From: Pelagibacteraceae bacterium
Lineage (GTDB): Bacteria > Pseudomonadota > Alphaproteobacteria > Pelagibacterales > Pelagibacteraceae
Direction of reading: 5' to 3'
DNA: 43,913 bases
Assembly (NCBI GenBank): GCA_008638165.1
Contig: VTPL01000002.1
Location: 1 to 43,913, forward strand
Part shown: positions 14,206 through 20,456 of the stretch, piece after piece
Layout of the letters: the number at the start of each line of letters is the position of its first letter
Position numbering within the stretch: the first letter of the stretch is position 1
Notes under the pieces: model-generated
What the model saw: the letters and a program-made list of their open reading frames with translations, nothing else
Database searches by the model: none
Told to the model about the DNA's origin: nothing
Made by a program: the position numbers and the translations under genes

Positions 14206-15353
14206 AAAGAATTGCAATAATAGGTGCTGGAATTTCTGGTTTATTTGTTGCCAATTTATTTCAAAAAAATAAGAATTATCAAATTTCAATCTATGAAAAA
14301 AAAGACTCTATTGATCTAAATAAAGGTTATGGAATTCAATTATCAAGTAACTGTATAAAATTGCTTAATAAATTAAGTTTCAATACCCTTGATAAAGACG
14401 AAGTATTTAATCCTACTGTAATTAACTTTTTTCAGACTAACAAAGAAATAAAAATATGTGACTTAGATATTACAAAATTTAATGATGAGGATTGTAAATA
14501 TAGTTCTCTTAAAAGATCTACTTTAAGTAAATTTTTGGTGGAAAAATTAGATAGTCATGTAATTAAATTTAATCATGAAATTACCGAAATCAACAATACT
14601 GACCACAAAATAAGCCTAAACTTTAAACAAGGTGATGTTGTAAATTGTGATTATTTAATAATTGCAGATGGTGTTTTTTCAAAATGCAAATCTTTACTTT
14701 CAAGCAATACAATAAAACCTAAATTTAACAATTCTATCGCTATAAGAGGTTTGATTGATAGTGAGCATTTACCAAAAGCTAAAAGAGATAATGTCTCTAT
14801 ATCTATGGGATCTAATTTTCACTATGTTGTTTATCCAGTTGATAATAAAGGACAAAAAACCAATTTTATTGGCATTCTAAAAGAAAAATTAACACAAGAT
14901 CAATTAAGTAATTACAAATTTTTTGATCAAGGTTCATACTTAAACTCTATTAAAGAGAAATTAAAAAATAAAATTTCAATTAATATTTTGGAAAATCTTC
15001 AGGATTTAAAGATATTCCCAGTGTTTGTTAGTGAAGAATTTTATAAATCTGAAAAAAATATTTTTTGTTTGGGAGATGCTTTTTTTGCTTATCCACCATC
15101 ATTTGCTCAAGGAGCTTCTCAGTCGATTGAAAGTGCATTTGAGTTGTACAAAGATATTATTGATGAAAAAAATAATTTTTATAATAATAGAATTATCAAA
15201 TCCAAAAGAGTTAATCTAAGATCTAAATTAAATCAGTTTGCTTTTCACATTTCAAACCCATTACTAGTTTATATCAGAAACTTTGTTCTTAAAATTTTAG
15301 TTAAAAATAAAAAGTTTTTAGATAGTTATTTAGGTAAAGTTTATAAAAATTAA
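14202..15353 (+). CDS. FAD-dependent monooxygenase (UbiH/salicylate-hydroxylase-like)
   Basis: 383 aa; IAIIGAGISGLFVANLF and FCLGDAFFAYPPSFAQGASQSIESAFEL. Confidence 0.82.
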   Translation: MKRIAIIGAGISGLFVANLFQKNKNYQISIYEKKDSIDLNKGYGIQLSSNCIKLLNKLSFNTLDKDEVFNPTVINFFQTNKEIKICDLDITKFNDEDCKYSSLKRSTLSKFLVEKLDSHVIKFNHEITEINNTDHKISLNFKQGDVVNCDYLIIADGVFSKCKSLLSSNTIKPKFNNSIAIRGLIDSEHLPKAKRDNVSISMGSNFHYVVYPVDNKGQKTNFIGILKEKLTQDQLSNYKFFDQGSYLNSIKEKLKNKISINILENLQDLKIFPVFVSEEFYKSEKNIFCLGDAFFAYPPSFAQGASQSIESAFELYKDIIDEKNNFYNNRIIKSKRVNLRSKLNQFAFHISNPLLVYIRNFVLKILVKNKKFLDSYLGKVYKN

Positions 15354-16420
15354 TTTTTTGAAATAAATTTTTGTCTTAGATAATCAATCGGGTGAGTTCT
15401 TCCATTTATATCACAATGCCAGTAAGTCCATCCGTTACAGCTTTCTGCCCCTAAAATAGTTGCTGCAACTTTGTGGATAGATCCCTCTGCTTGATTATGT
15501 TTTATGCTTCCATCGGCCATAATTCTTGCAGTTATTTTTTTCTTATTATCAAATATGCTAGTGCCTGGTTTAATAATTCCAAGTTCAACTAATGAGCCAA
15601 AAGGAATTCTTGGTTTTGATCGATTATTTTTTAGCGTATCTAGTAAATTATCTTCTATTGGTTTAGTATTTCTTAATCTCTGTTCAGCTGCTTTAAAATA
15701 ATTTTTTTCTTTTTCTATACCATAATAATTTCTACCTAATTTCTTAGCTACTGTAGCTGTTGTTCCTGATCCTAAAAATGGATCTAAAATCATATCTCCT
15801 TTATTAGATGTTGCTAATAAAACTCTATGAAGTAATGACTCTGGTTTTTGAGTTGAGTGGATTTTTTTTCCATTTTTCTTTAATCTTTCAGCACCATTAC
15901 AAATTGGTAGATCCCAATTTGACCTCATTTGAAGATCGTCATTTAAACACTTTAAAGACTGATAATTGAATGTGTATTTAGATTTTTCACTCTTAGATGC
16001 CCAGATTAAAGTCTCATGCGCATTAGTAAAACGTGTCCCTCTAAAATTAGGCATAGGATTATTTTTGTTCCAGATAACATCATTTAATATCCAAAATCCC
16101 AAGTTCTGAATTGCAGTACCAACCCTAAATATATTATGGTAACTACCTATAACCCAAATTGCGCCATCTTTTTTTAAAATTCTTTTACATTCATTGAGCC
16201 ACATGTATGTGAATTCATCATATTTTTTAAAACTATCAAATTGATCCCATTTATCATTTACAGCACTTACTTTTGATCTATCTGGTCTGATTAATTCATT
16301 TTTTAATTGTAAGTTGTAAGGGGGGTCTGCAAAAATTAAATCAAAACTTTCGCTTGGAATTTTTTTTAACTCCTCCAAACTATCTCCATTTATAATTTTA
16401 TTTTTGAGATTGGTATTCAT
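15350..16420 (-). CDS. ccrM: CcrM-type adenine-N6 DNA methyltransferase (predicted GANTC)
   Basis: 356 aa; FADPPYNLQL, DPFLGSGTTATVAKKLGRNYYGIE; C-terminal GSIHKVAATILGAESCNGWTYWH domain typical of CcrM. Confidence 0.93.
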   Translation of the reverse strand: MNTNLKNKIINGDSLEELKKIPSESFDLIFADPPYNLQLKNELIRPDRSKVSAVNDKWDQFDSFKKYDEFTYMWLNECKRILKKDGAIWVIGSYHNIFRVGTAIQNLGFWILNDVIWNKNNPMPNFRGTRFTNAHETLIWASKSEKSKYTFNYQSLKCLNDDLQMRSNWDLPICNGAERLKKNGKKIHSTQKPESLLHRVLLATSNKGDMILDPFLGSGTTATVAKKLGRNYYGIEKEKNYFKAAEQRLRNTKPIEDNLLDTLKNNRSKPRIPFGSLVELGIIKPGTSIFDNKKKITARIMADGSIKHNQAEGSIHKVAATILGAESCNGWTYWHCDINGRTHPIDYLRQKFISKN

Positions 16421-16432
16421 TTGTAAAAATTA

Positions 16433-16461
16433 ATTAGACTCGAAATGGATTCTACGGTCAA
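16433..16461 (-). promoter_or_regulatory. Candidate ccrM promoter with embedded GANTC sites
   Basis: Minus strand: TTGACC (16461-16456), 17-bp spacer, TCTAAT (16438-16433), 12 bp before the ATG at 16420. GANTC at 16437-16441 and 16448-16452, plus 16481-16485 just upstream. Confidence 0.65.
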
Positions 16462-16512
16462 CCTGAGATTGAAATATTTGGAGTCGCCTTGTGTTTCTTA
16501 TTAAGGTGATAA

Positions 16513-17085
16513 CTAGATGTTGTGTTTGGATATTTTAGCTACTGGTGAAAAAGTTTTTCGATGGTGCTTGGTGATACCAAGTTTTGTTAAAGCTTTTAAG
16601 TGCTGCTTAGTGCCGTAACCAAAATTTTTTTCCCAATAGTAACCTTTATTTTTTTTGGATAGTAAAATTATAAAATTATCTCTAGCAACTTTTGCAATTA
16701 TCGAGGCGGCAGAGATCGCAGGTATTTTTGTATCTCCCTTTATAATAGCTTTCATTTTATAGTTATTCATCACAGGAATTTTGTTACCATCAACTAATAC
16801 GTAAGAGGGTTTTTTCTTAAGTTTTTTAATTGCTCTTTTCATTGCAAGTAAACTTGCTTGTAAAATATTAATTTTATCAACCTCATTTTTTGATGCTTTC
16901 CCGATAGCCCAGATAGAATTTTTTTTTATGTATTTAGATAAAATTTCTCTTTCTTCCTTTTTAATACTTTTAGAGTCTTTTAATAATTTGATATTTATAT
17001 TTTTATTTAAAATAACTGCTGCAGCGTAAACTGGTCCTATTAAACTACCTCTGCCAACCTCATCTACACCAGCAATAACTTTCAT
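16513..17085 (-). CDS. rnhB: Ribonuclease HII
   Basis: 190 aa; IAGVDEVGRGSLIGPVYAAAVIL, KDSKSI, AASIIAKVARD. Confidence 0.95.
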   Translation of the reverse strand: MKVIAGVDEVGRGSLIGPVYAAAVILNKNINIKLLKDSKSIKKEEREILSKYIKKNSIWAIGKASKNEVDKINILQASLLAMKRAIKKLKKKPSYVLVDGNKIPVMNNYKMKAIIKGDTKIPAISAASIIAKVARDNFIILLSKKNKGYYWEKNFGYGTKQHLKALTKLGITKHHRKTFSPVAKISKHNI

Positions 17086-20346: not shown

Positions 20347-20379
20347 ATTTAATTTTTTTGTGTTATACGAAAATACTAT

Positions 20380-20453
20380 TGGGGCGTAGCCAAGCGGTAA
20401 GGCACGGGTTTTTGGTACCTGCATCCTAGGTTCGAATCCTAGCGCCCCAGCCA
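20380..20453 (+). tRNA. tRNA-Gln(UUG), CCA encoded
   Basis: Acceptor TGGGGCG/CGCCCCA, D-loop AGCGGTAAGGC, anticodon arm CGGGT-TTTTGGT-ACCTG (anticodon TTG), T-loop TTCGAAT, 3' G-CCA. Confidence 0.96.
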
Positions 20454-20456
20454 AAT

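Follow-up and report, generated by a model that had tools for sequence, protein, structure and literature searches.

The stretch of DNA analysed here (the window: 43,913 nucleotides of contig VTPL01000002.1) is from a SAR11 (Pelagibacteraceae) genome and carries on its minus strand a ccrM gene, encoding a GANTC adenine methyltransferase, preceded by an intergenic gap that itself contains GANTC sequences. The question raised by this locus is whether transcription of ccrM is governed by methylation of its own promoter. SAR11 bacteria rank among the most numerous cells on Earth, and this promoter may bear on the timing of both DNA methylation and division in them.

Profile searches revealed that the predicted CcrM protein is full length, with the N6_N4_Mtase domain (PF01555, E 5e-68) and the C-terminal RAMA domain (PF18755, E 1e-18) that are required for the CcrM family; the CcrM model NF050803 covers residues 6-351 at 579 bits, a score below the strict NCBI cut-off of 830. 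The nearest named ccrM loci, which encode CcrM proteins with 90-93% identity, are those of Pelagibacteraceae single-cell genomes and of Ca. Pelagibacter ubique AAA795-A20. GANTC methylation by CcrM has been reported for Pelagibacter, and in an isolate the sites were found to be nearly fully methylated (3477/3482), with less methylation near the origin in growing cells (PMC9516812). GANTC is correspondingly scarce in the window (55 sites observed, 117 expected from shuffles) and in G017, a closed relative with 95% identity in CcrM that served as the source of genome-wide counts, where the observed to expected ratio is 0.42 and sites number 1.08 per kb within genes as against 2.17 per kb of intergenic DNA. 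Depletion of this kind is known for Alphaproteobacteria that possess CcrM (PMC3973325), and fits with CcrM methylating GANTC in these organisms also. Separately, ccrM in one genome of genus group g12 (L093, G040:C1:621780-622831) is split by a stop codon into two pieces, one with an internal TAA, which could reflect a sequencing error or a pseudogene.

Table 1. Features of the ccrM locus, with positions numbered from the first letter of the window.
Feature	Position	Strand	Description
ccrM	15350..16420	-	GANTC adenine methyltransferase, 356 aa, N6_N4_Mtase and RAMA domains
-10 TCTAAT	16433..16438	-	predicted; 12 nt from ATG
GANTC site B	16437..16441		GACTC (GAGTC on minus); overlaps -10
GANTC site A	16448..16452		GATTC (GAATC on minus); in spacer
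-35 TTGACC	16456..16461	-	predicted
Inverted repeat TCAATC-TCA-GGTTGA	16458..16472	-	operator-like; abuts and overlaps -35
Box 2	16479..16494	-	half-box; 31 bp downstream of box 1; only left half ACACAA kept, right half holds site C
GANTC site C	16481..16485		GAGTC; inside box 2 footprint
Box 1	16510..16525	-	NrdR-box-like, ACACAACATCTAGTTA; 12/16 to ACACWATATATWGTGT
rnhB	16513..17085	-	ribonuclease HII, upstream of ccrM; PF01351 E 1e-41, NF000595 above cut-off

The gap between rnhB and ccrM is 92 bp in length. The promoter that the initial annotation placed on its minus strand, TTGACC-17-TCTAAT, does fit, at 16461..16433, and with a start site 7 nt downstream of the -10 it would give ccrM a leader of only about 5 nt. 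A generic sigma70 scan misses this promoter because the scan accepts only -10 elements with A as the second base, and in a generic promoter and terminator scan the number of promoter-like matches across the region was at chance level (16 found, 16.4 expected). The case for the promoter rests on conservation. A sample of 123 ccrM loci, drawn from two families of Pelagibacterales and 18 genus groups, was compared, and TTGAC is present at the corresponding place in every one, with the caveat that in L127 the automatic anchor picked a second TTGAC closer to the start codon. Around the -10, GAGTCTAAT is conserved in the window's own genus. The inverted repeat at the -35, in the form TCAATC-N3-GGTTGA, is conserved in the own genus and in groups g6, g11 and g13, and a longer form, TTCAATC-N2,4-RGTTGAC, occurs once only in G017. 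In groups g4 and g2 and in the second family (L033, L045, L114 and relatives) 6-7 nt separate the end of the predicted -10 from the ATG; the ccrM mRNA of L033, L045, L114 and their relatives would therefore be leaderless.

All three GANTC sequences that had been described in the gap are present, and the coordinates bear out that one overlaps the -10 and another lies in the spacer (Table 1). The accompanying remark that GANTC was seen in none of the other intergenic gaps read is inexact, given a site at 20434 in the gap 20347-20456. At intergenic density, the probability of at least three GANTC in a 92-bp gap is about 0.001, and there are around 540 gaps of at least 30 nt, so the arrangement in one genome alone is weak evidence. 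Three GANTC in the 90 bp upstream of a gene are found in G017 at just two genes, ccrM and umuD, of which ccrM alone has two of its sites inside a predicted core promoter. The umuD/umuC upstream region, the second intergenic triple (49 bp; L138, G017:C1:135682-135709, and G000:C74:354-381 in the window's own genome), precedes a gene for a Peptidase_S24 protein and also contains a LexA-like GTTC-N7-GTTC, the DnaA-box-like TGTGGATAA and a weak NrdR-like pair. It is possible that error-prone repair by umuD/umuC also comes under a shared methylation control. The umuD triple was considered as a replication origin and rejected, as GC skew and a hemE-like gene (hemE being recognised by eye, with no profile) place the origin of G017 near 1.155-1.18 Mb.

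Comparison across the Pelagibacterales provides the principal evidence for function. Within a core window of 32 nt counted from TTGAC, at least one GANTC is found in 108 of the 123 loci and in 16 of the 18 genus groups, the latter being the fairer measure since loci within a genus are related; the f2g18 locus (L127) was scored negative merely because its window was misplaced by the second TTGAC, and would be a 17th group. Of seven control palindromes with matching composition, six are found in 0-12 loci and the seventh, AGNCT, in 71, a count that arises partly because AGTCT is contained in GAGTCT. Site A is present in 88 of 123 loci, as GAATC (35), GATTC (33), GACTC (13) or GAGTC (7), such that all four bases appear at N, and the distal part of the core window, corresponding to site B, has a GANTC in 89. 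Site C, within box 2, is shared by 73 loci and 11 of the 18 genus groups. Among 80 named sequences from close relatives (71 of them distinct), all three sites are retained in 70, with B in 79, A in 75 and C in 73; N at site C in this set is A in 63 sequences, G in 14, T in two and C in one, with the G, A, T and C of the motif each at least 96% conserved. The sites proposed from a single sequence are thus kept in related strains, and across two families. They have been lost from the core promoter in group g9 (8/8 loci) and most of g12 (4/6), where GcrA and CcrM are retained, indicating that the arrangement is dispensable.

It might be supposed that the GANTC sequences are simply by-products of promoter bases that are conserved for other reasons, as where GAGTC runs into TCTAAT, and were never selected as methylation sites. 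The entire core promoter is indeed conserved in the own genus, with GAGTCTAAT nearly invariant. However, N is variable, with site A showing four different bases, and the distal GANTC shifts in register relative to the -10, the sequences being GAGTC/TCTAAT for the own genus, TTGAATC for g4 and GAATC/CATATT for the second family, which indicates that GANTC is kept while the adjoining bases change. The genome-wide depletion of GANTC noted above means, moreover, that drift would be expected to remove such sites. This explanation is largely refuted, and is regarded as improbable. The best explanation for the gap is that it represents the predicted ccrM promoter, inside which CcrM target sites appear to have been kept by selection. 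The sites lie inside the core promoter and are conserved beyond the adjoining bases, as would be expected of a methylation-controlled promoter; the arrangement itself is real and conserved, and is probably functional.

Retention of the GANTC sites in two families makes it likely that they serve a function as methylation sites in the ccrM promoter, and direct control of ccrM by methylation is likely also. To this extent the direct methylation feedback suggested by the initial annotation is partly supported, whereas repression as the sign of the effect, and a direct action upon RNA polymerase, are what we infer rather than what conservation reveals. CcrM would, on the proposed mechanism, methylate the very DNA that RNA polymerase must bind, via one GANTC in the spacer and another touching the -10, so placing N6-methyladenine in the spacer and at the -10 edge and making ccrM transcription dependent on the methylation state of the promoter. 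In the likeliest form, full methylation would lower initiation at ccrM; passage of the replication fork would then leave the promoter hemimethylated, permitting a burst of CcrM synthesis that would lead to remethylation and self shut-off. The ccrM gene of G017 is located at 52 kb, approximately a third of the replichore from the origin, and its hemimethylation would therefore fall within the first half of replication.

Three mechanisms could fit the conserved sites, namely direct reduction of sigma70-dependent initiation, reading of the sites by GcrA, and protection of the sites from CcrM by bound protein. Negative feedback is put first because it is self-limiting, requires no extra factor and fits with descriptions of Caulobacter ccrM, said to be active only when hemimethylated (PMC2217572), and of Agrobacterium gcrA, a cell-cycle promoter repressed by methylation (PMC11514494). 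Counting against repression, Caulobacter promoters with GANTC between the -35 and -10 have been grouped with a single phase of activation (PMC4287350), and the same observation favours GcrA, which in company with sigma70 could read methylated or hemimethylated core GANTC and switch ccrM on, methylation then being needed for expression. A subset of methylated promoters is known to be activated by GcrA (PMC7987155), and although Pelagibacter was placed by an earlier survey among lineages said to have neither CcrM nor GcrA (PMC2877005), GcrA (PF07750) is encoded over the full profile by 56 of the 60 family genomes, including the window's own (E 1e-38). Against activation by GcrA, the ccrM sites show no enrichment of YGAKTCK, the extended motif reported for GcrA targets in Caulobacter (50 of 265, compared with 21% genome-wide), and this motif was set aside as an explanation; f2g15 is the sole group in which all loci have the motif, which likewise was not recovered in Brevundimonas (PMC7987155). 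A methyltransferase gene that depended on methylation would, furthermore, form a positive loop that should be hard to restart from the unmethylated state. Activation by GcrA is considered rather unlikely, albeit a genuine rival to repression. The gcrA gene was also entertained as a second methylation-controlled promoter, and was ruled out since no GANTC was found in the gcrA promoter of the own genus.

The third mechanism holds that proteins bound at the promoter block CcrM, leaving stably unmethylated sites that act as the signal, in the manner of MucR-bound sites in Caulobacter. With one GANTC in a half-box and two in the RNA polymerase footprint, the sites are suitably placed for this, and the unmethylated GANTC of a Pelagibacter MAG are mostly in intergenic DNA (PMC9516812). 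However, the unmethylated regulatory sites named in the main text of the same report are those of sufE and groEL, with ccrM not among them, and site protection is considered very improbable.

Negative feedback by methylation may not be the only input to ccrM. Box 1, a palindrome approximately 100 bp upstream of the gene, resembles the binding site of NrdR, the dNTP/ATP-sensing repressor, and over the corresponding 50 positions the best match to ACACWATATATWGTGT reaches 12/16 or more in 100 of the 123 loci and 13 or more in 69, compared with 4 and 0, respectively, of 861 control windows. In the window's genome box 1 is overlapped by the 3' end of rnhB, and the idea that it represents merely the conserved C-terminus of RNase HII was rejected because box 1 falls outside rnhB in 28 loci of the own genus, and elsewhere forces the use of rare codons: His is CAC in 75/75 cases (27% elsewhere), Leu is TTG in 94/94 (12% elsewhere) and Ile is ATT in 0/75 (59% elsewhere). 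Half-box 2, mostly ACACAA or ACACTA, stands at +31, where the distances peak sharply, in 83 of the 103 loci of family f1; in g5 and g12 it stands at +30. The -35 follows the half-box at a distance of 32-36 in most genera; in g5, g7, g9 and g12 the figure is 22-24, one helical turn less. A full 16-bp matrix gave no peak at 31 for box 2 of ccrM; only the half-site is conserved.

A role for NrdR at ccrM, while plausible, makes a weaker case than at gcrA, since, although box 1 is strong, box 2 is only half a box, and the ccrM tandem of G017 ranks just 952nd when scored with a matrix derived from the gcrA and nrdA pairs (box 1 alone ranks 41st), so that a scan for tandems would miss it. NrdR bound at the box and half-box could supply an input of nucleotide status, and methylation of site C, within the half-box, could affect its binding. 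As the pair is upstream of the -35, the effect of NrdR on ccrM could differ from the repression that it usually exerts. No strict pair was found before ccrM in 86 genomes of other Alphaproteobacteria, using a pattern that would miss half-boxes.

The boxes could instead bind some other regulator that recognises a similar AT-rich palindrome. In keeping with this are the incomplete box 2 of ccrM and the weak gcrA boxes in some genera (L097, L098, L204, L210 and L211, where the gcrA pair is weak or absent). Conversely, both the consensus and the 31-bp geometry (a 15-bp spacer) match those of NrdR, for which boxes function with 14-17 bp between them (PMC12051234), the same pairs precede nrdA and gcrA in many genera, and nrdR is conserved; TIGR00244 scores above cut-off in 36 of 41 genomes, the window's own included. 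A different regulator is conceivable, if at the upper end of what would be termed unlikely. With the plain consensus, the 31-bp tandem pairs preceding nrdA and gcrA score near the top in G017, and a matrix ranks the gcrA pair first and that of nrdA second, a result that is partly circular given that the matrix was built from both. An independent search of 41 genomes with a strict pattern, the counts being obtained by comparing coordinates, located the pair before nrdA in about 20 genomes and immediately before gcrA in about 17, spread over many genera. With two boxes about 31 bp apart in its promoter, the arrangement that defines an NrdR operator, predicted control of gcrA by NrdR is well supported at the level of sequence. 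The tandem boxes are directly before gcrA, and often near the start codon, in L181 (G017:C1:999893-999939), L199, L095, L200-L203 and L206-L208. The strict pattern also precedes gcrA, by 72 bp, in one alphaproteobacterium from a different family (G250:C13:1534809-1534845), so that the link between NrdR and gcrA may be older than SAR11. Single NrdR-box-like sites in G017 at C1:389264 and 690434 are upstream of clpX and an HU-like gene.

The presence of full-length GcrA and NrdR, and of a conserved NrdR-like operator at the promoter, qualifies the earlier portrayal of ccrM control as that of a genome with few regulators. Taken as a whole, negative feedback by methylation at ccrM, with NrdR as a probable second input, is given an even chance of being correct on the strength of these comparisons. 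A broader scheme, in which NrdR would act on the cell-cycle genes gcrA and ccrM as well as on ribonucleotide reductase, with CcrM methylating its core promoter and also the half-site for NrdR, such that dNTP supply and fork passage are combined at a single small promoter in a lineage reportedly devoid of CtrA, is offered tentatively, at somewhat short of an even chance. If true, it would constitute a compact and directly testable circuit joining dNTP supply, replication and DNA methylation, with a nucleotide-sensor operator common to nrdA, gcrA and probably ccrM. CcrM sites in promoters and NrdR operators are both of kinds already known; the present arrangement, and the likely link of NrdR to gcrA and ccrM, appear to be new, a partial literature search having found no paper that connects NrdR with gcrA, ccrM or SAR11.

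Several established systems offer points of comparison. The ccrM gene of Caulobacter crescentus similarly has GANTC near its own promoter and expression tied to hemimethylation (PMC2217572), but is activated by CtrA, which acts as master regulator of the cell cycle in other Alphaproteobacteria, whereas a SAR11 member, Pelagibacter, is reported to lack ctrA (PMC2877005); in SAR11, moreover, the sites are inside the -35/-10 region and adjoin an NrdR-like operator. Promoters of the GcrA/CcrM type in Caulobacter and Brevundimonas share with the SAR11 promoter the placement of GANTC between or overlapping the -35 and -10, in organisms that have both GcrA and CcrM, and differ from it in that the SAR11 sites show no enrichment of YGAKTCK and that the gcrA promoter of the own genus is devoid of GANTC. 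The gcrA gene of Agrobacterium tumefaciens is likewise a core cell-cycle gene with a GANTC-rich promoter, for which the model is that methylation lowers expression (PMC11514494), although in Agrobacterium the targeted promoter is that of gcrA and holds six GANTC within 250 bp, as opposed to ccrM with 2-3 in about 50 bp in SAR11. Lastly, the upstream boxes resemble those of nrd operons in their palindrome near ACACWATATATWGTGT, in the 31-bp pairing and in the conservation of nrdR; the SAR11 targets, however, include gcrA and probably ccrM besides the nrd genes, and whereas NrdR usually represses from boxes situated on the promoter, the ccrM pair lies upstream of the -35 with its second box a half-site.
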